The notes beneath the pieces are model-generated. The model worked only from the letters and a program-made list of their open reading frames with translations, had not been told where the DNA came from and ran no database searches. This document shows positions 1 through 10,352 of a DNA stretch of 10,352 nucleotides, piece by piece; positions within the stretch are counted from its first letter, which is position 1, and each line of letters begins with the position of its first letter. The stretch comes from Chloroflexota bacterium. GTDB lineage: Bacteria > Chloroflexota > Dehalococcoidia > Plut-88900. Location: positions 1 to 10,352 of the forward strand of contig JACZVB010000019.1 of NCBI GenBank assembly GCA_022572865.1, written 5' to 3'. The translations under genes were made by a program, and so were the position numbers.

Positions 1-439
1 CTCCGTCATCTGTAGAGAGGAAGATCCCTTTCGTCGTGCCGGCGTAAAGGGCGGCCTTGGAAGTCGATGACGGTGTTATGATCAGCGACCCGACGTTTAT
101 GGTGCCGATTCCCCTGCTTATGTGCAACCAGGAATCGCCTCCATCCTCGGAGCGAAATATTCCTATGGAGGTGTTGTCGTATAGGGTCTGGTCCTCCTTC
201 CACGAGGGGGATATGACCAGGCTCGGAAAACCCGGCAGATCGAGGTCGGTGGATGGGGTCTCTCTATAGCTCTTGGGCGCGGCCCAGGGAGCCAGGATCC
301 CGACGCCATAGAAGATGACTATCACTATCAGGGCAGTGAAGGCCACCTTCTTATGAATGAGACGCCGCGCTGCCTGGGTCCAGGCTCCTCCCCTGGACTC
401 AGGCACAAATACATCTTCGTCGGAGCCGCGTATCGCCAA
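1..439 (-). CDS. DppC/OppC-type ABC permease N-terminus fused to Asp-box beta-propeller repeats (partial)
   Basis: I translated this frame by hand; it is open from a TTG at 439-437 to the left edge (146 codons visible), with an in-frame TGA at 454-452 just upstream. AGGA and GAGGT lie close before the TTG. Residues 20-55 look like the N-terminal segment of DppC/OppC permeases: Arg/Lys-rich (RRLIHKK), then one hydrophobic helix at about 32-50 ending in LAPWAAP. The usual next part (the GTDxxGRD region and permease core) does not follow. Instead there is a Pro/Asp linker and two repeats of Asp-box (BNR, sortilin/sialidase-like) type: SPSWKEDQTLY (77-87) with SEDGGDSW (97-104), then ALYAG (130-134) with STDDG (142-146). 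The propeller would sit outside the membrane. It lies 65 bp behind the DppB-type permease, so it is probably the partner permease with a propeller inserted in its first external loop. The permease core lies outside the window, so a single-span anchored propeller protein remains possible. Confidence 0.75.
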   Translation of the reverse strand, partial: MAIRGSDEDVFVPESRGGAWTQAARRLIHKKVAFTALIVIVIFYGVGILAPWAAPKSYRETPSTDLDLPGFPSLVISPSWKEDQTLYDNTSIGIFRSEDGGDSWLHISRGIGTINVGSLIITPSSTSKAALYAGTTKGIFLSTDDG

Positions 440-504
440 GCTACCTCGTCCTCAACACACTACTCTGGATAAAGCGTAAGGGCGTGGAGCAAAATCGGAT
501 ATTT

Positions 505-1434
505 TTAGTCATACCTGATCCTCGGGTCCAGGAACCCATAAAGGATGTCCACCATCAGGTTGGCAAGAACGAAGGAGATGGCGATCAAAAGGACCACGGC
601 CATGATCACAGGATAGTCACGGTTGAATATGGAGTCGACGGTCAGTCTGCCGATGCCCGGAATGCCGAACAGCCCCTCGGTAATGAAGGCGCCGGTCACC
701 AGGTCTCCCATTGACAATCCCACGACGGTAACTATGGGTATGAACGCGTTTCTGGCGATGTGACGGCGGCGGACGACAAATTCCTTCAGACCCTTGGACC
801 TGGCGGTCCTGATGTAGTCCTGGCCCAGCACATCCAGGGTGCTGGCCCTCATCAGCCTGGTAAGTATCGCTATGCCGGGGACCCCCAAAACAAAGGCGGG
901 CAAGATTATGCGGGTGTCGAAAAACCCTCCCCATCCTGAGCTAGGCAGCACGTCCAGCCATATCACAAAGACCAGAAGCAGCAGGGGAGCGGTTAGCAGC
1001 ACCGGCACGGAGACGAAAATCAGGGTCACGGATACTATTACCGGGTCAATCCATCGTCCTTGGTTCATAGCGGCTATCAGGCCCAGGGGAATGCCTCCCA
1101 GAACTGAGACGATAGTTGCGGCGATGCCTAGCTGGGCCGAAATCCAGATCTTCCCGGAAATCAGACTGGCCACCGATTGGCCCCTAAAGGTAAAGCTCTC
1201 CCCAAAATCACCATGGAAGGCGTTCCAGACATACCGCCCGTACTGCACGAAGAACGGATCATCCAGGCCCCGCTGCGCTCGGATTCGCTCTATCACAGCG
1301 GGGTCCCTGTGCTGTCCCACCAGTACCGAGACCGGGTCTCCCGGTCCATAGGTCCCCAGGGCGAAGGTTATGAAGGATACGGCAAACAGTACGACGGGCA
1401 TCCACGTCAGACGGCGCAGAATATAAGTGCGCAT
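505..1434 (-). CDS. DppB/OppB-type ABC transporter permease
   Basis: Integral membrane subunit of a peptide/nickel/opine-type ABC importer. The 309-residue length is normal for the DppB/GsiC family. The N-terminus (MRTYILRRL, then a helix at about 10-30 ending in YGPGDP) is the family signature. Five more hydrophobic segments follow, at about 100-125, 136-158, 173-192, 232-255 and 278-300. The cytoplasmic EAA-type loop that docks on the ATPase is at 204-216 (GQDYIRTARSKGL), followed by RNAFIP, and the conserved EGLFGIPGIGR motif lies near the last loop. The ATG at 1434 has a GGGGA stretch upstream. The gene lies between the binding lipoprotein (294 bp upstream) and the second permease (65 bp downstream). 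No ATPase gene is visible; it may lie further left or elsewhere. Substrate cannot be told from sequence; oligopeptide or a similar solute is a family-level guess. Confidence 0.93.
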   Translation of the reverse strand: MRTYILRRLTWMPVVLFAVSFITFALGTYGPGDPVSVLVGQHRDPAVIERIRAQRGLDDPFFVQYGRYVWNAFHGDFGESFTFRGQSVASLISGKIWISAQLGIAATIVSVLGGIPLGLIAAMNQGRWIDPVIVSVTLIFVSVPVLLTAPLLLLVFVIWLDVLPSSGWGGFFDTRIILPAFVLGVPGIAILTRLMRASTLDVLGQDYIRTARSKGLKEFVVRRRHIARNAFIPIVTVVGLSMGDLVTGAFITEGLFGIPGIGRLTVDSIFNRDYPVIMAVVLLIAISFVLANLMVDILYGFLDPRIRYD

Positions 1435-1728
1435 TCCCCAGTCCCCTACTTCAAACCTTGCCTGTTGCCCAGTATAGGACTAGTTTCAGGCGTAGTATAT
1501 TGAAAGGGCGCCCACAGGGCGCTTTCCAGGTCAGCCGCTGCGGATTCTTGGAGGCCCGTGGTCTCATGATAGACATTCAAAGGCGTAGGGGCCATCGGCA
1601 ACCCGATGATAGAGTTGGCGGAGACCACCACCGTCGCCTTCCCCATACTCATCTCGTCTATCTATACGAGCCGAGAAGGGATGGGGCCCCTGGGCCGGCC
1701 CCAAGGCCCCTTCTTCAAGCCGTTTCGC
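1435..1728. other. Spacer between binding-protein and permease genes
   Basis: 294 bp without a convincing gene. It is long for an operon-internal gap. It holds a strong hairpin next to the binding-protein stop (1683-1710), a short inverted repeat CTCGT/ACGAG at about 1652-1669, and a GCGCCC-ACA-GGGCGC hairpin at about 1508-1522. On the minus strand two TATACT hexamers occur about 23 bp apart near 1485-1520, but neither has a recognisable -35 box. A 68-codon minus-strand frame fills part of it and was not accepted as a gene. Confidence 0.5.
1683..1710 (-). terminator. Intercistronic stem-loop after the binding-protein gene
   Basis: GGGGCC (1683-1688) pairs with GGCCCC (1705-1710), and inside it TGGG (1691-1694) pairs with CCCA (1700-1703) around a CCGGC loop. 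Outer AGAA (1674-1677) can also pair with TTCT (1711-1714). It starts 18 bases after the binding-protein stop codon. On the minus transcript no U-run follows, so it is more likely an mRNA-stabilising or partially terminating structure than a full terminator. Such hairpins often let a binding protein be made in excess over its permeases. The role is inferred; the pairing is visible. Confidence 0.5.
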
Positions 1729-3546
1729 CTACTGCGACTCTAAATAGATGTTCTTGAGCTTGGGAACAATTAGAGGAGTCAAGATGTAGTTCTTGACGTG
1801 GGATTTTATCAGAACGTACCTGTCCCCCTCATACCATTTGGGGATCCACGGCGACTCGTTTACTATTATCTGTTCGGCCTGTTGATACAGGGCTATACGG
1901 GTTTCCACGTCCGCTTCCGTCCTGGCCTGCTCAAGAAGCCGGTCTACCTCAGAGTTGGTATAGCCGGTATGGTTGTTGGAGCTTTCACTGTGGAACAGGA
2001 TGTCCAGAAAGTCCTGTGGATCGGGATAGTCCGCCACCCATCCCAGGGTGAACATCTGGTATCTCCTCCGGTCCAGGTCGTTCAGGAAGGTGGCGAACTC
2101 GGACTGCTGTATCTCAACATCCACTCCCAGGAACCTCCGCCACATCTCCAGGACTACTTCTGTGTCCAGACCCACGGCGCCGCCACCGCCCGGCACCGAA
2201 AGTATTATGGTGGGCAGGTTGGCTGCCGCCTTGGCGGAGGCCTGGCTCAACAGAAGGATGCGCTCATCGGGGTCACTGGTCATGTCGGCTTGCAGCAACA
2301 GCTCTGTGATCTCGGGGTCGCCCTGCCCGTAGCTGGACTCCGCCATGAGCCGCATCGCCTTCTCAGGATCGTAGTGCAGGCCCTCCAGGTTTTGGTTGAA
2401 TCCAGGGAAGCCCGGGGGCAGGATTCCGTAGGCAGGTGTTACCAGGTTGGAGAGGACCGCGTCGGCGATAAGCTCCTTGTTGATTGCCAGGTTTAGCGCC
2501 TGTCTCACCTTGATGTCGTCGAAGGGCGCCATCTGGGTGTTCAACCCTATGTAGCTGATGCTATAGTCGGGCGGGGAGATGTTCAGGTCCCTGTTTAGCT
2601 CTTCCGTGGGGTCTAGGACCCTGTCTATGTCAGCCAGGCCGACCCCCGTGAAATCTATCTCGTCGTTTTCATACATGGTCATGCCCACCCCACCGCTGAG
2701 GATGAAGTTCACCGCATCCAGGTGAGGCGGGCCATTGTAGAACAGCTCATTACGCTCAAACCTAATGCTCTCTCCTATCTCCCACTTCACCATTTTGAAT
2801 GGCCCGGTGCCGTTGGGCCTGGAGGTCCAGTCGGTGCCCGATTCTACGTTTTCCTTGTCCACGACAAAGGCCGTCGGGTAGGTCAGCTTGGCCAGGAAGT
2901 AAGGTTTAGCGGCGTCGATGGTTATCTCCAGGGTATAGTCATCCAGCACTCGGATTCCGCTTACGCTGTTTGCCGTCCCGTTCAGCATGGCCTTGGCCCC
3001 GACGATGTCGTTCAGGTAGAGATCGGCCACCGTGGACTCGGTAGCCGGGTTTAGGGTCCGTTCCATGCTGTATTTGAAGTCGTGCGCGGTTACGGGCTTG
3101 CCGTCGTGAAATTTGACATCCGTCCTCAGGCGGAAGGTATAGGTACGACCGTCGTTTGTGACATCCCAACTCTCGGCTATATCGGGGATTATGAACAGGT
3201 CTGTGTCTATGCTTACCAATCCGCTGTAGATCTCCACTACCAGGGCCGCCGAGGTGGTATCGCTGGTGAGGGCCGGGTCCAGGGTCGGTGGGTCGCCAAA
3301 GAGCCTGGTGAACTCCCCGCCGGCAAGAGGGTCACTACCGGCGGTTGCGGATAGGGGCGTGGACGCCAGCGCACCGCTTTCGGAGGGTATCGAGGTGGGG
3401 GTGGGCAGCGGTGCGAAGCCCGGCGTTGCCGTGGGCGCGGTGCTCGGTTGTGATGAGGTATCACCTCCACCGCCGCACGCAGCCGCCACTAAGACCCCTA
3501 TCAGGGCCAGGCCTATGAATAGTCTCTTGCTTTTAAGCAGTGCCAT
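1729..3546 (-). CDS. Family 5 solute-binding lipoprotein of an ABC importer
   Basis: Surface lipoprotein that captures the solute and delivers it to the adjacent permeases (SBP_bac_5, DppA/OppA fold). I start it at the ATG at 3546 (MALLKSK): GGAG at 3556-3553 lies 6 bases upstream, whereas the in-frame ATGs at 3558 and 3552 lack their own ribosome site. Signal peptide residues 1-23 end in the lipobox VAAAC with Cys24, followed by GGGG and a Ser/Thr/Pro-rich tether to about residue 70. The family core is clear: PPTLDPALTSD, FRLRTDVKFHDGKPV with AHDFKYSMER, GTGPFKM, IKVRQALNLAINKE, and late GWVADYPDPQDFLDILF with SSNNHTGY. Length is about 605 residues, slightly long. A segment at about 412-450 resembles the C-terminal helical segment at about 533-571 and seems to be an extra copy. 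No truncation or frameshift is seen. Ligand unknown. Confidence 0.93.
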   Translation of the reverse strand: MALLKSKRLFIGLALIGVLVAAACGGGGDTSSQPSTAPTATPGFAPLPTPTSIPSESGALASTPLSATAGSDPLAGGEFTRLFGDPPTLDPALTSDTTSAALVVEIYSGLVSIDTDLFIIPDIAESWDVTNDGRTYTFRLRTDVKFHDGKPVTAHDFKYSMERTLNPATESTVADLYLNDIVGAKAMLNGTANSVSGIRVLDDYTLEITIDAAKPYFLAKLTYPTAFVVDKENVESGTDWTSRPNGTGPFKMVKWEIGESIRFERNELFYNGPPHLDAVNFILSGGVGMTMYENDEIDFTGVGLADIDRVLDPTEELNRDLNISPPDYSISYIGLNTQMAPFDDIKVRQALNLAINKELIADAVLSNLVTPAYGILPPGFPGFNQNLEGLHYDPEKAMRLMAESSYGQGDPEITELLLQADMTSDPDERILLLSQASAKAAANLPTIILSVPGGGGAVGLDTEVVLEMWRRFLGVDVEIQQSEFATFLNDLDRRRYQMFTLGWVADYPDPQDFLDILFHSESSNNHTGYTNSEVDRLLEQARTEADVETRIALYQQAEQIIVNESPWIPKWYEGDRYVLIKSHVKNYILTPLIVPKLKNIYLESQ

Positions 3547-3598
3547 CCTCATCTCCATCCGTTGACCGCTATGACGATATTAAGAGGCGGGACGTTCT

Positions 3599-3627
3599 AT
3601 GATACTAAGTTAGCATAACCCATTCAA
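3599..3627 (-). promoter_or_regulatory. Sigma70-type promoter of the transporter operon
   Basis: On the minus strand, TTGAAT (3627-3622; 4 of 6 consensus) is followed after exactly 17 bases by TATCAT (3604-3599; 5 of 6). Transcription would start near 3592, giving a leader of about 45 bases to the lipoprotein ATG at 3546. Spacing and position both fit; activity is inferred. Confidence 0.55.
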
Positions 3628-3632
3628 TGGGT
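3618..3632. promoter_or_regulatory. Perfect palindrome over the -35 box (candidate operator)
   Basis: ACCCATTCAATGGGT is a 15-base perfect inverted repeat around a central C. The -35 hexamer of the transporter promoter lies wholly inside it, so a dimeric regulator bound here would compete with RNA polymerase. The regulator is not in the window. Confidence 0.5.
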
Positions 3633-3634
3633 GT

Positions 3635-3654
3635 GGGACAGTTGACTGAGTCCC
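3635..3654. repeat. Imperfect dyad upstream of the transporter promoter
   Basis: GGGAC (3635-3639) and GTCCC (3650-3654) flank an inner AGT-TG-ACT. The octamer TGACTGAG (3643-3650) within it is the reverse complement of CTCAGTCA in both full units of the tandem repeat at 3698-3739, so the two elements may share a binding protein. This is a sequence observation; function is unknown. Confidence 0.35.
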
Positions 3655-3697
3655 GTAATTTGATCCTCCATTGATGTTTAACGCTGGCACTGTTGCA

Positions 3698-3757
3698 AAG
3701 TTTCTGCCCTCAGTCACTAAGTTTCTGCCCTCAGTCACCAAGTTTCACCCTCAGACC
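3698..3757. repeat. 21-bp tandem direct repeat, 2.8 copies
   Basis: Two units (3698-3718 and 3719-3739) differ only in their last base and share the core TTTCTGCCCTCAGTCAC. A third, degraded unit (3740-3757) keeps AAGTTTC and CCCTCAG with small changes. The 21-bp period equals about two turns of B-DNA, so each unit presents the same face. It lies between two divergent promoters, which suggests an operator array, but replication slippage without function is also possible. Confidence 0.75.
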
Positions 3758-3827
3758 GGTATCTCGATACCAGGAGACCGGGGTAGGACTGGCTGGCGGA
3801 GCCGGCGCCGTCAAAGGCAATTCGTCA

Positions 3828-3856
3828 TTGACATTCCCCTTTGGTAGAGCTAGACT
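3828..3856 (+). promoter_or_regulatory. Sigma70-type promoter of the cofGH operon
   Basis: Consensus -35 TTGACA (3828-3833), a 17-base spacer, and -10 TAGACT (3851-3856; 4 of 6). The start point would be near 3863, about 78 bases before the cofG GTG. An inverted repeat GGTAG (3843-3847)/CTACC (3855-3859) straddles the -10 box and could be an operator. Confidence 0.55.
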
Positions 3857-3940
3857 ACCTTTCCCGTTGGACGGGGCTCCTTATCCCGGCCATCCCTCCT
3901 TTGTTCTCACAGATGTAGCAGCGCCATTTGAGGAACTCGC

Positions 3941-5140
3941 GTGGTAAATATTGCCACCAGGAGCTTCGAAGAAGATACCCTGGAGAGGGCAGCGAACGGC
4001 GAGTCCATCACCAGGGATGAGGCCTACAGACTCGTGAGGTTCGATGGCACCCTGATCCCGGCCCTCATGGACTGTGCAAGCCGCATCCGGCAGAAGCACA
4101 AGGGCCGCATGGTTTCCTACTCCAGGAAGGTATTCATACCCCTGACCAATCTCTGCCGGGACAAGTGCGGCTACTGCACCTTCGTCAAATCACCCAAGCA
4201 CCTGGAGGCCAGGACCATGACTCCCGAGGAGGTGCTGGCCGTCGCAGAGGCGGGTCGAAAGGCCGGGTGTAAAGAGGCCCTCTTCAGCCTGGGTGAGAAA
4301 CCTGAAGAGGTGCATCCTCTGGCCAGGAAGCATCTGGAACAGCTGGGCTATCCTTCCATGACCGCCTACCTTATCGACATGTGCCGCCTGGTTTACCGGG
4401 AGACGGGACTGCTGCCCCATTCCAACTCGGGGGTCCTGGAGCGGGAGGAGGTGGCCCAGCTCAAGGAGGTGACCGTCAGCATGGGGTTGATGCTGGAGAA
4501 CATCAGCCCTCGCCTTCTGGAGAGGGGCCAGGCCCACTACGGCTGCACGGGCAAAGCCCCGGAGCTCCGGATAGCAACCATGAGCTATGCTGGTGAGATG
4601 AAGATACCCTTTACCACGGGCATCCTAATCGGCATCGGTGAGACCCCGGAGGAGAGGGTCGACTCCCTCTTCGCCATTAAAGAGCTCCATGAAGAATACG
4701 GCCACATTCAAGAGGTGATAATCCAGAACTTCCGTGCCAAGCACGACACCCGTATGCGGGGCTTCAAAGAGCCGACGGCCCTTGACATGGTGGTCACCAT
4801 CGCTGTGGCCCGCCTGGTGCTGGGTGGCCAGATGAACATCCAGGCCCCGCCCAACCTCACTCCAGATGCTTACCAGTTCTACCTGACCGCGGGCATCAAC
4901 GACTGGGGCGGAGTGTCGCCGGTCACAAAGGATTTCATCAATCCCGAGAAGGCCTGGCCCAAGATTGTCGAGCTGAAGGAAAGGACTGAAGATGCAGGCT
5001 TTGTCTTTAGGGAGAGGCTGGCCATCTATCCCGAATACATAGTGGAAAAACCCGGGTACGTGAACCCCTCTATGAGGGACACAATGCTGGATTGGACGGA
5101 CCAGGACGGCTACGTGCGGGAAGAGGAGACGCGATGGTAA
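3941..5140 (+). CDS. cofG: FO synthase subunit CofG (radical SAM)
   Basis: Subunit 1 of 7,8-didemethyl-8-hydroxy-5-deazariboflavin (FO) synthase, a cytosolic radical SAM enzyme. It closes the deazaflavin ring on the adduct made by CofH, giving FO, the chromophore of coenzyme F420. The [4Fe-4S]/SAM motif CRDKCGYC places Cys72, Cys76 and Cys79, preceded by the CofG-typical YSRKVFIPLTNLC. Other family features are LFSLGEKPEE, LPHSNSGVL, ISPRLLERG, TTGILIGIGET, IIQNFRAK, IQAPPNL and NDWGGVSPVT. It has 399 residues, longer than many stand-alone archaeal CofG proteins and close to the CofG half of fused FbiC, owing to a helical N-terminus. The start is GTG at 3941 with GAGGA 6 bases before it. The stop overlaps the cofH start, so the two subunits are co-translated. 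The other F420 genes (cofC, cofD, cofE) are not in the window. Confidence 0.95.
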   Translation: MVNIATRSFEEDTLERAANGESITRDEAYRLVRFDGTLIPALMDCASRIRQKHKGRMVSYSRKVFIPLTNLCRDKCGYCTFVKSPKHLEARTMTPEEVLAVAEAGRKAGCKEALFSLGEKPEEVHPLARKHLEQLGYPSMTAYLIDMCRLVYRETGLLPHSNSGVLEREEVAQLKEVTVSMGLMLENISPRLLERGQAHYGCTGKAPELRIATMSYAGEMKIPFTTGILIGIGETPEERVDSLFAIKELHEEYGHIQEVIIQNFRAKHDTRMRGFKEPTALDMVVTIAVARLVLGGQMNIQAPPNLTPDAYQFYLTAGINDWGGVSPVTKDFINPEKAWPKIVELKERTEDAGFVFRERLAIYPEYIVEKPGYVNPSMRDTMLDWTDQDGYVREEETRW

Positions 5141-6300
5141 CCGAGATCGACTCCCCTGGGGTGGTCGGGACATCTCTCGACCGTATACTAGGGGTAATAG
5201 ACCTGAACACATCTCATATACTCGATAGGGCCATGAACGGCGAGGAGATAGGGGTGGAGGACGCCGTCACCCTCTTCGGGGCCGCCGACCTGGAGCTCCA
5301 CGCCCTCTGCATAACGGCCAATGAGCTGCGGAAGCAGGCGGTTGGCGATATCGTTACTTTCGTTACCGTACGAAACATCAACTTCACCAACATCTGCTAT
5401 ACGGGATGCCGTTTTTGCGCCTTCGCCAAGCACTTCGGCGACGAGGAAGCCGAGACCCTGACCATCGATGAGGTGGCACGGCGCGCAGAGGAGGCCTGGG
5501 AATCCGGAGCCACCGAGATCTGCATGCAGGGCGGGCTGCACCCCAAGATGACAGGCTATGAGTACCGTGACATCATCATCGCCGTCAAGGAGCGGGTGCC
5601 CGACATCCACATTCATGCCTTCTCACCCTTCGAGATCCAGTATGGCACCAAGAAAACGGGCCTCAGCACCCGGGACTTCCTCCTGATGCTGAAGGAGGTG
5701 GGCCTTGGTACTGTCCCCGGCACCGCCGCCGAAATTCTGGACACGGAGATTCGCCAGAAGCTGACCAAGAACAAGCTGAGCGCCGAGCAGTGGGTCGAGA
5801 TCATAAAGACCGCCCACTCCGTGGGCCTGCGCACTACCTCCACCATAATGTACGGCCACATAGATGCTCCCATCCACTGGGCCAGGCACATCGCCCTCAT
5901 CAGGGATATCCAGAAGGAGACGGGCGGTATAACCGAGTTCGTCCCCCTGGGGTTCGTCCACTGGGACTCGCCCCTTTATCTGGACGGGGGCGTCCGGCCC
6001 GGGCCCACGGGCATGGAGGACCTGCGGATGCACGCCGTGGCCCGTATCATGCTCAACAACTGGATCAAGAACATCCAGGTATCGTGGGTGAAGCTGGGTC
6101 CCAAGTTCGCCCAGTTGTGCCTCAACGCCGGGGCCAACGACTTCGGCGGCACCCTGATGAACGAGAAGATATCCCGCTCTGCCGGCGCTCCCTACGGCCA
6201 GTACATGGCCCCCGAGGAGTTCCAGAGGCTTGTTAAGGACATGGGCCGCATACCCGCCCAGCGCTCCACCACCTACGACCTGATCAAGGTCTACGAGTAA
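5134..6300 (+). CDS. cofH: FO synthase subunit CofH (radical SAM)
   Basis: Subunit 2 of FO synthase: a radical SAM enzyme that joins the tyrosine-derived hydroxybenzyl group to 5-amino-6-(D-ribitylamino)uracil, giving the intermediate that CofG cyclises. The cluster motif CYTGCRFC places Cys88, Cys92 and Cys95, after NINFTNIC. Family features include CMQGGLHP, HAFSPFEI, KEVGLGTVPGTAAEILD, TTSTIMYGH, FVPLGFVH and a late GANDFGGTLMNE. I place the start at ATG 5134 (388 residues): GGAG sits 5 bases upstream and ATGGTAA overlaps the cofG stop. A start 14 codons earlier (5092) is open but lies inside cofG without a ribosome site. MqnC/MqnE menaquinone enzymes are relatives, but the pairing with cofG settles the call. 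A hairpin at 6338-6357 follows the gene. Confidence 0.95.
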   Translation: MVTEIDSPGVVGTSLDRILGVIDLNTSHILDRAMNGEEIGVEDAVTLFGAADLELHALCITANELRKQAVGDIVTFVTVRNINFTNICYTGCRFCAFAKHFGDEEAETLTIDEVARRAEEAWESGATEICMQGGLHPKMTGYEYRDIIIAVKERVPDIHIHAFSPFEIQYGTKKTGLSTRDFLLMLKEVGLGTVPGTAAEILDTEIRQKLTKNKLSAEQWVEIIKTAHSVGLRTTSTIMYGHIDAPIHWARHIALIRDIQKETGGITEFVPLGFVHWDSPLYLDGGVRPGPTGMEDLRMHAVARIMLNNWIKNIQVSWVKLGPKFAQLCLNAGANDFGGTLMNEKISRSAGAPYGQYMAPEEFQRLVKDMGRIPAQRSTTYDLIKVYE

Positions 6301-6337
6301 CCTCTTTCCGACCTTTATCCATCCAAGCCAGCGCGAA

Positions 6338-6357
6338 CGATGGCATCTTGGCCATCG
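6338..6357 (+). terminator. Stem-loop downstream of cofH
   Basis: CGATGGC (6338-6344) pairs perfectly with GCCATCG (6351-6357) around the loop ATCTTG, 37 bases after the cofH stop. No T-run follows, so intrinsic termination would be weak. A second small dyad CGAAC-ACTG-GTTCG (6356-6369) overlaps its edge. It lies just before base composition turns AT-rich, so it may also mark the boundary of an inserted segment. Confidence 0.35.
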
Positions 6358-6449
6358 AACACTGGTTCGTTGACAGCAACCTGGGCGCTTCTTACACTCC
6401 TACTAACTCTAGTTTATCCTCGCACTCAGGAAAGCCAGGTCGAATTTTA

Positions 6450-7427
6450 ATGCCAAATTATTATCTGGTGTCGTTGTCCAACAACACAAACTTAAAGCTC
6501 TGTATAAAGTATGCGCTTGCTGGCTTCACAAACAGTGCTAATGGTTTTTGGACATTTTTAGAGATTGATAACGGTGATTACCTCTCGTTCTTATACGCAG
6601 CTAAAGTGTGGAATCTTTATCGGGTGACAGAAAAGATTGCTATCGATGATGCTGCAGAGTTTCCGCCCTGGCCATCAATCACGTTCAAGCAGTCCGGTAA
6701 AACTTATTACTTTCCGTTCCGCTTATCTCTAGAACCGGTTAGGCAACTCGAAGAGAGCTTGGTCAGGCAAGAATTTGCATATGTAGCGGAGAATCTACTT
6801 CTGCGTGGGGGATATGGCAAGACTCACTTCCAAGCTGACCAGACTACCTTACAAGCCGTATCCCAAATGGGAGAGGTCTACACCCAAAAAGTTGAGATTT
6901 TGCCTCAGGCACCTCGATTGTATACTCCGAGAATCAGTCAAACTAAGGCGGTTGCGACTCCTCCGAAAATATATCAATTTTCAGAATTAGTTCTTCAAGC
7001 CTTAATCAAGAAACACTTACGAAAGCCATCAAACCTAAAGAAATTCCTTTCTGCTATAAATCAGGAATCTCTTGACGAACAATCCTTTGAAATACTTGGA
7101 GAACGAGCCCTACCAGAGGGTTACGTAGACATCATAGTAAAAGATGCTACCCCTATTGGTAGGTCCAGCAGCATTGCTATCGAAGTCAAGCGAGGAGACG
7201 CCACCATCAAAGACCTTGACCAACTAGGTAAGTATGTACAAATGATTGGCCAGGAATGTAAGGCAGGTGTTCTGATAGCTCGCAAAGCTTCTTCTAAGAC
7301 TTTACAATATGCGCAGCAAAATGATTTGCATGTCATTTCTTATGATGTGGCATTTAGCTCGTTGAATGGCACAGATGAATTTGAACATTTGTTGTCCTCA
7401 TTCCAGTTAGTCAAGCCAAGTTCGTAA
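6450..7427 (+). CDS. Predicted EVE/PUA-like domain plus PD-(D/E)XK nuclease
   Basis: A 325-residue two-domain protein. Residues 1 to about 140 resemble the EVE/YTH-like PUA fold: MPNYYLVSL start, GFWTFLEIDNGDYLSFLY, then VWNLYRV and FPPWPSITF with YYFPFRLSLEP. In EVE and YTH proteins this fold binds modified bases in an aromatic cage; Trp34 and Trp54 are candidate cage residues by position only. A Pro-rich linker (about 145-180) leads to a NucS/RecB-like nuclease domain: GYVDIIV (Asp227), IEVKRG (Glu245, Lys247) and DQLGKYV (Gln258), the usual D...ExK...Q order. I infer cleavage of DNA carrying a modified base. The ATG at 6450 fits the domain start; an open TTG at 6348 would add 34 residues with no domain match. 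Lower GC than its neighbours suggests transfer. The domain calls come from reading alone; the nuclease call is the firmer of the two. Confidence 0.75.
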   Translation: MPNYYLVSLSNNTNLKLCIKYALAGFTNSANGFWTFLEIDNGDYLSFLYAAKVWNLYRVTEKIAIDDAAEFPPWPSITFKQSGKTYYFPFRLSLEPVRQLEESLVRQEFAYVAENLLLRGGYGKTHFQADQTTLQAVSQMGEVYTQKVEILPQAPRLYTPRISQTKAVATPPKIYQFSELVLQALIKKHLRKPSNLKKFLSAINQESLDEQSFEILGERALPEGYVDIIVKDATPIGRSSSIAIEVKRGDATIKDLDQLGKYVQMIGQECKAGVLIARKASSKTLQYAQQNDLHVISYDVAFSSLNGTDEFEHLLSSFQLVKPSS

Positions 7428-7573
7428 GAGTCGGTGCTATATAGAATCTGATAATTTGAAACTAAGCTTTTAAATGCACAGGTATGAATCCTGATTTGCA
7501 TGTAGAATGAATCGCGGGTGGACGAAGCTATCGTTGTTACCCAGAATTTAATAACATCACGGAGAGTAAGCTT

Positions 7574-7789
7574 ATGACCGACAGACTAAGAATCAAACTG
7601 GATTTGGAATTGTTTCAACCTAACGAACTCTTGGCAGCGGAAGCCCAGGCTAAGAGGAAGAAGGGGGTAATTTATTCCTGGAATGCTACTAATAAGGATA
7701 ACTGGCTGCAACGTGGGGTCTCAACGGAGAACGTAATTGGGTTTATAGTATTTCCCACTTATCTCTCTGACGGAATCCATGTTCCTTAG
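7574..7789 (+). CDS. Small protein of unknown function, paralogue 1
   Basis: 71 residues, not recognised. The ATG at 7574 has GGAG at 7561-7564, 9 bases upstream. Without gaps it matches the next gene at 22 of 71 positions, including LxIxLD at 5-10, G31, IYxW at 33-36, NWL at 43-45, then G56, V59 and P61. The pattern suggests a short beta strand, a charged helix (AEAQAKRKK), then strands: a small alpha/beta fold. No signal peptide, membrane helix or metal motif is seen. It stops about where paralogue 2 goes on into an acidic tail, so it lacks that tail. It follows the nuclease gene by 146 bp of AT-rich sequence and shares its base composition. A role with the nuclease is possible from position but not shown. 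Confidence 0.7.
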   Translation: MTDRLRIKLDLELFQPNELLAAEAQAKRKKGVIYSWNATNKDNWLQRGVSTENVIGFIVFPTYLSDGIHVP

Positions 7790-7836
7790 GCAAGAGCATG
7801 AGTTCACGCGTAGTGAATGTGTTGGGGGGCTGATTT

Positions 7837-8091
7837 ATGATAACGACCTTGCAGATTAGGTTAGATGTCCAGTTTCATCAATTAGAAGACATCGAAGAGG
7901 CCGATGCTTTAGCAAGGAAGGAGAACGGAGCTATATATACATGGAAAACTGTTGGGCGGTCTAATTGGCTAGAGAAAAATCCTAGGTGTGTAGATGCTCT
8001 TGGTCTCGTGGTACTTCCAAAGGGATTGCCTGACTTCATAGAGATGGCAGATGACCTTTGGGAGGAAGATGACGAGGAGGTGTTTGGATGA
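7837..8091 (+). CDS. Small acidic-tailed protein of unknown function, paralogue 2
   Basis: 84 residues, not recognised; a clear tandem paralogue of the preceding gene (shared LDxxxxQ, GxIYxW and NWL positions). It adds a strongly acidic C-terminus, ADDLWEEDDEEVFG. The ATG at 7837 has a GGGGGG run 7 bases upstream. Its TGA overlaps the next ATG (ATGA at 8088-8091), and its last codons contain the GAGGAGGTG ribosome site of the RidA-family gene, so translation of the two is coupled. Base composition is AT-rich over most of the gene and becomes G-rich at the end. The acidic tail may be partly a by-product of reading through the older ridA leader. The conserved residue pattern between the two copies supports real coding. 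Confidence 0.75.
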   Translation: MITTLQIRLDVQFHQLEDIEEADALARKENGAIYTWKTVGRSNWLEKNPRCVDALGLVVLPKGLPDFIEMADDLWEEDDEEVFG

Positions 8092-8597
8092 CAATAGAAG
8101 AGAAACTCGCCCAGATGGGCATCACCCTGCCCGATTACAGCAAGACCGGGTATCCCGGCACCAATTACGGATCGATGAAGGCGTATCACCGGGTGGGGAA
8201 CGTGCTGTTCCTAAGCGGCCACATCCCCTGGAAGGACGGCGGGCCCGTATTCACCGGGATTCTGGGCAAGGACGTGACCATCGAGCAGGGGTACGAGGCG
8301 GCCCGTCTCACCGGCATGCACTGCCTGGCCGGTATAATACAGGCCATAGGCGACCTGGACAGCATCGTGTGCATCGTCCGCTCCCTGAACTTCGTGGTCT
8401 GCACCCCCGAGTTTACCGAGGTCAACAAGGTCTCCAGCGGCGCTACCGACCTCTTCGTCGAGGTGCTGGGTCGGGAAAAAGGCCTGGGGGGCCGGGCCAC
8501 CATCGGGGTGACCAGCCTGTCCAGCGGGGTCTGCTTCGAGAACTGGCTCACGGTAGAGGTCAAGGGGGAGTACATCCCCGACGAGCCCGGGTCCTGA
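8088..8597 (+). CDS. RidA/YjgF/UK114-family protein
   Basis: 169-residue cytosolic protein of the RidA superfamily, in the longer subgroup that starts with a TIEEKLAQMGITLPD-type helix rather than the 128-residue classical RidA. Classical members hydrolyse reactive enamine/imine intermediates released by PLP enzymes. Family features: VGNVLFLSGHIPW, TGILGKDVTIEQGYEAARL, GDLDSIVCIVRSLNFV, FTEVNKVSSGATDL, and GGRATIGVTSL, whose Arg136 aligns with the conserved substrate-carboxylate-binding arginine of RidA. The start ATG at 8088 has a near-perfect GAGGAGGTG 5 bases upstream. GC content returns to the level of the cof genes. The next gene follows after 63 bp on the same strand and is probably co-transcribed. 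Members of this subgroup can differ in activity, so deaminase function is a family-level inference. Confidence 0.9.
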   Translation: MTIEEKLAQMGITLPDYSKTGYPGTNYGSMKAYHRVGNVLFLSGHIPWKDGGPVFTGILGKDVTIEQGYEAARLTGMHCLAGIIQAIGDLDSIVCIVRSLNFVVCTPEFTEVNKVSSGATDLFVEVLGREKGLGGRATIGVTSLSSGVCFENWLTVEVKGEYIPDEPGS

Positions 8598-8660
8598 GCC
8601 CCATGATCAAAAGCCCTGGTTAGACACAAAGCCTGAGGCAGATATAAAGAGGGAAGAGAT

Positions 8661-10064
8661 TTGATCCTCAAACAGTATTATCTGGCCTGTCTCGCCCACG
8701 CCTCGTACCTGATAGGGGACGAGGGTAGCCGGACCGCCGTTGTAGTCGACCCTCAACGGGACGTGGACCAGTACCTAGAGGACGCCCGGGAGTCGGGACT
8801 TGAGGTACGCCACGTCTTTCTAACTCACTTTCACGCCGACTTCGTAGCCGGCCACCTGGAGCTTCGCGATAGGGCAGGGGCTGCTATACACCTGGGGGCA
8901 CGGGCTGAGGCCGAATACGACTTCACCCCCATGGGTGATGGGTCCGTGCTGGAGTTCGGCGATGTCCTGTTGAAGGTCCTGGAGACCCCGGGCCACACCC
9001 CCGAGGGCATATCCATCCTGGTCTACGACCTGGATAATGACCGGGACGTTCCCCACGCCGTCTTGACGGGAGACACCCTGTTCATCGGCGATGTCGGCCG
9101 CCCAGACCTGATGGCCTCCCTGGGTATCACAGCCTCTGAACTGGCCGGATTGCTATACGACTCCCTGCACCAGAAACTCCTCCCTCTGCCCGATGTGACC
9201 CTGGTCTACCCGGGCCACGGGGCCGGGTCCATGTGTGGAAAGAACCTGAGCACCGACACCGTCTCAACCATCGGGATTCAGCGGCAGTACAACTACGCTC
9301 TACAGCCGATGAGCAAGGAGGAGTTCACCGCGATGGTGACGGCGGACCAGCCTGAGGTCCCGGGATACTTCTCATACGATGCCATGCTTAACCGGCAGGA
9401 GAGACCGACCCTTGATAAAACCCTGGAGCAGGTTGTGACGCCGCTATCCCTGGATGGGACCCTCCAGAGGGCCGGGAGCGGGGCCCAGATATTGGACGTG
9501 CGAGAGCCTGCAGACTTTGCCGGCGCTCACTTAGCTGGTTCCATCAACGTCCCATTAAGCGGCAAGTTCGCCACCTGGTGCGGCACAGTCCTCAGAAGAG
9601 ACGTGCCTATCGTGTTGATCGCCGAGCCTGGAAAGGAGCACGAGGCCTCCTTACGGCTGGGCCGCATCGGCTACGATCACGTCGTGGGCTTTCTGGAAGG
9701 CGGCATGCAGGTCTTGGAACCTAGAACCGAGCTCGTTCGCAGAACGGACCGCGTCACTGCCGCTACTCTGGCCGAGCAGCTTGACTCACCTCAGCCCCCC
9801 GTAATCCTCGATGTAAGGACCCCAGGTGAGCGACAGCAGAAAGCTATCGTGGGGAGCCTACACATCCCTTTGAATCACCTTGCAGAGCGTACCGCCGAGG
9901 TGCCAAGGGACAGAAGGGTGGTCGTGCACTGCGCCAGTGGCTATCGGTCTTCCATCGCCGCCAGCGTGTTGGAGCGGAAAGGTTTCATGGAGATATCCGA
10001 CCTGGTGGGCGGCATCGGGGCTTGGGAGGCCTCCCACCTGCCGACGGTAGCCAGCCAGGCTTAG
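8661..10064 (+). CDS. CstB-like persulfide dioxygenase with pseudo-rhodanese and rhodanese domains
   Basis: 467 residues. Residues 1 to about 240 form a metallo-beta-lactamase fold of the persulfide dioxygenase (ETHE1/PDO) type: THFHADFVAGH (His56, His58, Asp60, His65), PGH with His112, and TGDTLFIGDVGRPD with Asp138. His56, His112 and Asp138 match the mononuclear Fe(II) ligands of ETHE1. Residues about 270-360 are a rhodanese fold (ILDVREPADFAGAH) whose catalytic Cys position reads LIAEPG, so it is inactive. Residues about 370-462 are a full rhodanese with CASGYRS and Cys424. This order (PDO, pseudo-rhodanese, rhodanese) is that of staphylococcal CstB, which turns persulfide sulfur into thiosulfate; Cys10 and Cys192 (SMCGK) lie where CstB also has cysteines, as I recall. 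Expected role: cytosolic sulfane-sulfur detoxification. TTG start at 8661 with GAGGGAAGAG just upstream. No sulfide:quinone reductase or CstR-like regulator is nearby. Confidence 0.9.
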   Translation: MILKQYYLACLAHASYLIGDEGSRTAVVVDPQRDVDQYLEDARESGLEVRHVFLTHFHADFVAGHLELRDRAGAAIHLGARAEAEYDFTPMGDGSVLEFGDVLLKVLETPGHTPEGISILVYDLDNDRDVPHAVLTGDTLFIGDVGRPDLMASLGITASELAGLLYDSLHQKLLPLPDVTLVYPGHGAGSMCGKNLSTDTVSTIGIQRQYNYALQPMSKEEFTAMVTADQPEVPGYFSYDAMLNRQERPTLDKTLEQVVTPLSLDGTLQRAGSGAQILDVREPADFAGAHLAGSINVPLSGKFATWCGTVLRRDVPIVLIAEPGKEHEASLRLGRIGYDHVVGFLEGGMQVLEPRTELVRRTDRVTAATLAEQLDSPQPPVILDVRTPGERQQKAIVGSLHIPLNHLAERTAEVPRDRRVVVHCASGYRSSIAASVLERKGFMEISDLVGGIGAWEASHLPTVASQA

Positions 10065-10132
10065 CTTTATTACGCCTCATCACCCTGCATCGGAGTGTGG
10101 GGCGCTCCTCGTCCTTTGCCCCTTTACTACGG

Positions 10133-10141
10133 TGATAGAAT
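10133..10141 (+). promoter_or_regulatory. Possible extended -10 element for the CoA-transferase gene
   Basis: TGATAGAAT combines a TGN extension with TAGAAT (5 of 6 consensus). Transcription would start near 10148, about 34 bases before the ATG. No good -35 box is seen at the normal distance, which is tolerated for extended -10 promoters. Weak support. Confidence 0.28.
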
Positions 10142-10181
10142 TTGCCCTAGACTATTCACCTGCCGGAAAAGCGTCGGTTAG

Positions 10182-10352
10182 ATGGACCAGGCCCTCGAAG
10201 ACCTCAGGATATTAGACCTTACTCACTACGTGGCCGGGCCGGTCTGCACCAAAGTCCTCGCCGACTTCGGGGCCGACGTCATCAAGGTGGAGCGCCCTGG
10301 TGTCGGGGACCGGGCTCGCCACCTACCTCCCTTCCTGAACGACTCCCCTCAC
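10182..10352 (+). CDS. CaiB/BaiF family III CoA-transferase, N-terminus (partial)
   Basis: The first 57 codons are visible and the gene runs off the right edge. Family III CoA-transferases move CoA between carboxylic acids (carnitine, oxalate/formate, benzylsuccinate and others). The N-terminal signature is clear: [20 protein letters not shown], then [14 protein letters not shown] and GVGDRAR, which form the Rossmann-like CoA-binding start of the fold. The catalytic Asp lies further on, outside the window. The ATG at 10182 has no strong ribosome site, only a purine-rich GGAAAAG about 10 bases upstream, but it fits the usual family start. The 117-bp gap to the previous gene and a possible promoter suggest separate transcription. 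Substrate cannot be told from this part. Confidence 0.9.

Follow-up and report, generated by a model that had tools for sequence, protein, structure and literature searches.

A permease gene with an in-frame Asp-box propeller

This work concerns a gene at the edge of a 10,352-nucleotide contig from a Dehalococcoidia bacterium of the phylum Chloroflexota (GenBank assembly GCA_022572865.1, contig JACZVB010000019.1, positions 1 to 10,352, in the following termed the window), which encodes a DppC/OppC-type permease of an ATP-binding cassette (ABC) importer carrying a β-propeller. Read along the minus strand, the window contains a binding lipoprotein, the partner permease gene dppB and a frame that starts with a TTG at position 439 and is still open at the window edge (position 2), encompassing 146 codons (Table 1). 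In this fragment, the Pfam family OppC_N covers residues 20-64 (E 3.5e-9, 36.8 bits at a cut-off of 23.9), followed by sequence with the Asp-box motifs SEDGGDSW and STDDG, for which the propeller family Sortilin-Vps10 reaches 14.8 bits and stays below its cut-off of 33. A preceding sequence-only reading of the window had interpreted the frame as the N-terminus of a DppC/OppC permease continuing into an Asp-box propeller, and had named as support a single extended frame with six to eight blades followed by a GTDxxGRD motif and an EAA loop.

The window holds 146 of approximately 662 residues, and the remainder of the gene was taken from a close relative. A scan of public genomes with the 146-residue fragment yielded 95 loci with a relative, 80 of which were kept. 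By far the best is locus L001 from the Chloroflexi metagenome-assembled genome (MAG) B41T1B8, which displays 95% identity across all 146 residues and whose DNA is 97.3% identical to the window over 1167 bases; L001 and its MAG, termed G001, serve as stand-in for the window's own genome. Positions 732-2720 of L001 constitute one frame of 662 amino acids containing transmembrane helix 1 (TM1), seven Asp-box blades, the sequence GTDRLGRD, an EAA loop and the permease core, as had been anticipated. Matches to OppC_N (residues 20-64, 32.9 bits), Sortilin-Vps10 (PF15902, 81.8 bits, E 6.1e-23, cut-off 33), BNR (PF02012, 29.5 bits, passing the cut-off of 27) and BPD_transp_1 (residues 450-662, E 4.1e-31) account for its three parts. 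The Asp boxes are located at about residues 97, 142, 188, 245, 291, 337 and 382, six of them being identified by pattern and the remaining one, STNGGDLW, by eye. Among the 80 loci kept, L001 is the only one combining an Asp box with a genuine GTDxxGRD in one frame; the same pattern was matched in L046, where no permease sequence surrounds the match.

The same architecture is found in relatives, as the sequence-only reading had expected. In a search of 5.8 billion proteins, OppC_N, propeller and BPD_transp_1 were jointly detected in 11 proteins (P0001-P0010 and P0012) with 60-98% identity. Five further proteins are partial: P0011 and P0013 lack the N-terminus and P0014-P0016, which look frameshifted, lack BPD_transp_1. 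The named sources of fusion proteins comprise two Dehalococcoidia and one Chloroflexi. With 11 full and five partial proteins at 54-98% identity from several sources, the fusion is the product of neither chance nor a single misassembly. A joining of two genes by misassembly or frameshift, with a normal DppC encoded elsewhere, could be suspected from the mere 146 codons in the window and from the appearance of P0014-P0016, but it is already contradicted by full frames in 11 diverged proteins and finds no second DppC in the fragmented G001 (see below), so that we consider its probability as negligible.

Position of the insertion and predicted structure

In an alignment of fusion proteins with plain homologues (A2), the latter are gapped from residue 56, just after the sequence ILAPWAAP at the end of TM1, to about residue 395, ahead of the stretch GPS...GTDRLGRD. 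This gap is interrupted by nine linker residues, which were placed in the middle of the propeller by the aligner, and elsewhere in at most 7% of rows. A2 includes 95 of 226 listed non-fusion rows (P0121-P0346) and was prepared without P0014 and P0015; a further alignment, A1, was prepared without P0013-P0016. The distance from TM1 to the GTD sequence amounts to 359-364 residues in 12 complete fusion rows, compared to a median of 21 (range 21-120) in plain homologues, with values of 338, 188 and 358 residues in the partial rows P0011, P0013 and P0016.

A structure model predicted from 110 rows has a predicted local distance difference test (pLDDT) score of 87.6 and combines the fold of DppC with an inserted propeller. 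The solved structure of E. coli DppC (chain 8z1w_B) aligns with the model over its entire length of 282 residues, and the propeller, a single domain whose blocks reach pLDDT values of 79-96, is located between TM1 and TM2. For its tether on the side of TM1 (residues 59-65), the confidence of the prediction is low. This model supersedes a first one from 13 rows, in which the propeller was good and the permease mostly showed pLDDT values below 50. The insert, about 330 residues long, is a seven-bladed Asp-box propeller located in the extracytoplasmic loop connecting TM1 and TM2 of a DppC-type permease, and we are close to certain about this architecture.

With proteins of known structure (DppC from E. 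coli, 8z1w_B, and M. tuberculosis, 8wd9_C, and OppC, 8z21_B and 8j5q_C), the fusion shares OppC_N, the fold, GTDxxGRD, an EAA-type coupling loop and an operon with DppB and a family-5 binding protein, whereas it differs in the approximately 340 extra residues that form the propeller. Membership in a named NCBIfam equivalog (Opp1C-4C, NikC, DppC and others) was not obtained among the 25 matches listed out of 27, all of which fall below their cut-offs, the best being Opp4C (233.8 at a cut-off of 350). Judged by Pfam, predicted fold and operon, the fusion is a permease of the DppC/OppC type.

Operon organization and the permease core

The gene order on which the sequence-only reading had based its assignment of a working partner permease, binding lipoprotein, DppB and then the fusion, was confirmed. 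In G001 the operon is spread over two contigs, with C168 corresponding to positions 1070-4524 and C203, which contains L001, to positions 1-1167 of the window. The genes dppD and dppF do not adjoin the fusion operon in the available sequence, as is also the case for the plain operons of genomes G018, G327 and G084; in G001, a single DppD/DppF pair is encoded on a different short contig.

No ordinary second DppC was detected in G001, a fragmented MAG whose completeness is not stated, either in a protein search, where the 11 matches comprise the fusion gene, DppB and nine hits to the propeller part, or among 12 matches to PF00528. The latter consist of DppB, the fusion gene, a fragment on contig C88 that by eye resembles DppB and nine others, which belong to seven frames without GTDxxGRD resembling other importers (a second match on C179 being counted within the same frame). 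The DppB-like fragment is located at the contig edge (locus L121, C88 positions 1-831) and its frame continues into sequence that does not resemble a permease. Because the MAG is fragmented and C88 opens with this fragment, the assembly of G001 may have missed a second importer. The sequence-only reading had named a frame ending after the propeller with a normal DppC elsewhere in the operon, or a misassembly or frameshift, as outcomes that would contradict it. Instead, the core follows the propeller, no other DppC was found in G001 and an ordinary DppC occupies the corresponding place in five orthologous operons.

GTDxxGRD does not vary among the fusion proteins, and their coupling loop conforms to [ED]AAR.MGA. 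Their mean pairwise identity, calculated without P0011, is 84% in the core and 56% in the propeller. As far as can be judged from such conservation, the core looks as that of a working permease should.

Table 1. Features of the fusion operon and its surroundings (window positions unless a locus is given)
Feature	Position	Strand	Basis or remark
dppC-propeller fusion gene, 5' part	2..439	-	146 codons; whole gene read in L001:732-2720
GAGGT, resembling a ribosome-binding site, 3 bases upstream of TTG	443..447	-	sequence read by eye
OppC_N segment, residues 20-64, containing TM1 (model helices 31-48 and 50-53)	248..382	-	Pfam and model
Start of inserted propeller, residue 68 onwards; first model strand at residue 74	2..238	-	model
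First Asp box SEDGGDSW, residues 97-104	128..151	-	translation and pattern
Second Asp box STDDG, residues 142-146, cut by window edge	2..16	-	complete in L001
dppB, partner permease, 309 amino acids	505..1434	-	BPD_transp_1, E 8.8e-40
Family-5 solute-binding lipoprotein, 609 amino acids	1729..3558	-	SBP_bac_5, E 1.5e-90; lipobox-like AAAC, Cys at residue 28
Binding-protein segment, residues 411-446, exceeding its counterpart in most of the compared relatives by about 32 residues	2221..2328	-	comparison with relatives; also in L134
Cohesin-domain protein, Peptidase_MA_2 protein, M28 peptidase piece	L001:2991-5284	-	downstream of fusion gene

Distribution and origin

The fusion gene is rare in sampled genomes. 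It was found in G001 only, among 393 genomes of the class, 400 of the phylum and 100 relatives, the latter all lying within the class sample; for class and phylum, at most three candidates were scored per genome, and the class rows were listed in part. Searches by family and order gave back no genome but the centre one. Of the 393 genomes in the class sample, 204 yielded a match with an E value of 1e-40 or less; among the rows listed, all matches other than that of G001 begin at residue 378 or later and cover the core alone. These samples overlook real carriers, as P0012 resides on a contig of 3.2 Mb. A search for at least two Asp boxes by pattern identified none in 106 non-fusion permeases of at least 364 residues, drawn from the best 120 of 1057 matches, and no relative was found in viral contigs when searched with patterns from two core stretches. 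One of the database proteins, P0122 (550 residues), joins a PF03176 N-terminal part to a DppC core without GTDxxGRD and might be a chimera. The titles and abstract beginnings listed by searches of the open-licence literature revealed no paper describing a propeller within DppC, which does not prove that it is unpublished.

In a tree of 109 cores, prepared without P0016, 14 fusion proteins form one clade (support 100/100, present in all 200 bootstrap trees), which fits a single gain. With a midpoint root, used for drawing only, the clade arises from within the plain DppCs at a depth of several supported branches, the nearest plain rows being P0244 (weakly, 87/51) and P0341. On the basis of these sequences, the layout is so far restricted to a small clade. 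Orthologous operons of the order binding protein-dppB-dppC with a plain DppC were identified in five genomes (G018, G327, G084, G281 and G365), in two of which (G281 and G365) dppD-dppF precede the operon. Their identity to the fusion operon is 52-57% for the binding protein, 59-63% for DppB and 63-67% for the core.

A gain in one clade would also be compatible with a neutral passenger, a propeller inserted once into a tolerant loop and retained in the absence of a specific role, and so would be the length of up to 120 residues that this loop attains in plain homologues and the faster evolution of the propeller compared to the core. We regard this as very unlikely, since a passenger of 330 residues would be expected to decay or vanish in some members, whereas the complete proteins contain seven blades in frame, predicted with block pLDDT values of 79-96, and preserve invariant positions even where the identity of the propeller drops to 43%.

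Possible roles of the propeller

To our knowledge, permease subunits of type I ABC importers rarely contain large folded inserts, the best known being MalF-P2, a region of Ig-like fold located between TM3 and TM4. Like the propeller, MalF-P2 is folded, extracytoplasmic and part of a single permease subunit, and it is used here as working analogy only: fold and place are unlike, and its contact with the binding protein has been simulated, whereas the fusion is known from sequence and a model. The simulation study on the maltose importer describes contacts of a MalF-P2 segment with MalE (PMC3150292). In the solved Dpp importer, the binding protein resides on DppB and DppC with a scoop of DppB reaching into it (PMC12136057). 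This scoop motif of E. coli DppABCDF is likewise extracytoplasmic, follows TM1 of a Dpp permease and engages the binding protein (PMC12136057); it differs in comprising about 30 residues of DppB instead of a 330-residue domain in DppC.

Two features of the fusion lineage bear on such a contact. The binding lipoproteins of the window and of G001, which are 98% identical, contain 46 residues between two landmarks that are separated by 12-25 residues in 29 of 29 others, which score best among the 178 matched genomes. Within the same protein, the extra stretch is similar to the C-terminal helix segment, with a local score of 46 that none of 1000 shuffles attains (maximum 40), compared to a score of 26 with the N-terminal part. 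In the propeller, 15 of 16 fusion proteins display a hairpin in blade 4 with the sequence ER[KR]xG, compared to two of the 104 nearest free propellers. Both the comparison with the C-terminal helix and the hairpin pattern were chosen after inspection. The extra segment of the binding protein may count as circumstantial support for docking from one lineage. A longer lipoprotein linker that would reach past the propeller was considered and rejected, as its 51 residues fall within the range of 7-52 found in the 21 of 29 relatives with a lipobox pattern.

In view of the lipoprotein insert, the blade-4 hairpin and the parallels to Dpp and MalF-P2, we rank docking first, followed by anchoring to a polymer or surface and by a role in gating or assembly. 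Gating, lipoprotein docking and polymer binding had already been suggested as possible roles by the sequence-only reading. The importer would act with DppB, the lipoprotein of the operon and DppD/DppF ATPases encoded elsewhere. The propeller might be positioned next to the gate at the outer face and might provide an additional docking surface that recruits the binding lipoprotein or holds it at the permease, similar to MalF-P2 yet with another fold. We favor such a docking or retention role tentatively, granting it not quite an even chance. A more far-reaching proposal, in which a seven-bladed propeller serving as surface receptor on the permease itself was grafted once into DppC, together with a matching new lipoprotein segment, resulting in a co-adapted, permanently docked or polymer-tethered uptake machine, appears rather unlikely.

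Several observations weigh against docking. The lipoprotein insert is found only in the window and G001 and, because both are nearly identical, would reflect one event that is possibly unrelated; the insert and the blade-4 hairpin each count for one lineage. Since the orthologous operons keep an ordinary DppC, transport itself does not require the propeller. The propeller also diverges much faster than the core, and its constraint looks weaker given a higher ratio of non-synonymous to synonymous substitution rates (dN/dS) than that of DppB: between window and L001 the ratio is about 0.4 for the propeller (eight changed codons) and about 0.1 for DppB (15), the former derived from 80 codons with three synonymous and five non-synonymous changes, too few for a conclusion.

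Fold matches of the propeller include GH74 xyloglucanases, the BNR protein 3b7f, YCF48 and many unrelated WD40 propellers. GH74 xyloglucanases are built from a pair of seven-bladed propellers, between which the active-site cleft is located, and YCF48 is an Asp-box assembly factor of photosystem II. These proteins, as well as those annotated as 'photosystem II stability/assembly factor-like', are free-standing proteins or enzymes, whereas the fusion propeller is an insert of a permease. The matches to GH74 and 3b7f would suit a surface anchor or polymer receptor, where the propeller binds glycan, S-layer, peptidoglycan or protein aggregates without touching the binding protein and keeps the importer close to its food source. 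The M28 peptidase piece, the Peptidase_MA_2 protein and the cohesin-domain protein downstream in L001, encoded on the other strand, place proteins in the neighborhood that possibly handle extracellular material. However, likeness in fold says little about the ligand, as many unrelated WD40 propellers match equally well, the single propeller of about 330 residues lacks the inter-propeller cleft of the two-propeller GH74 enzymes, and the peptidase and cohesin neighbors come from one genome and lie outside the window. We judge this alternative as unlikely.

The match to YCF48 and the family-specific blade-4 hairpin would suit a regulator of the gate or of assembly, which packs on DppB/DppC or on a third protein to control opening or assembly. 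Another Asp-box protein could serve as such a partner, and G001 has more Asp-box frames, located on contigs C65, C100, C230 and C244. The low-confidence tether on the side of TM1 (residues 59-65), though, agrees more readily with a mobile domain than with a rigid gate, and we consider this role a distinctly unlikely one. For docking, as the reading we prefer, the sister transporters with and without propeller offer a ready comparison, which extends to affinity and substrate range.

Other genes of the window

The remainder of the window contains genes on the plus strand. Positions 3941-6300 encode two radical SAM proteins, one of which, the second, ends in a CofH/MqnC C-terminal domain. Their listed frames overlap by 49 bases, and we take them to be a pair of the cofactor F420 or menaquinone type. 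They are followed by a protein with a C-terminal nuclease domain of the NucS_C type (6348-7427) and by a protein consisting of a metallo-beta-lactamase fold and two subsequent rhodanese domains (8661-10064).
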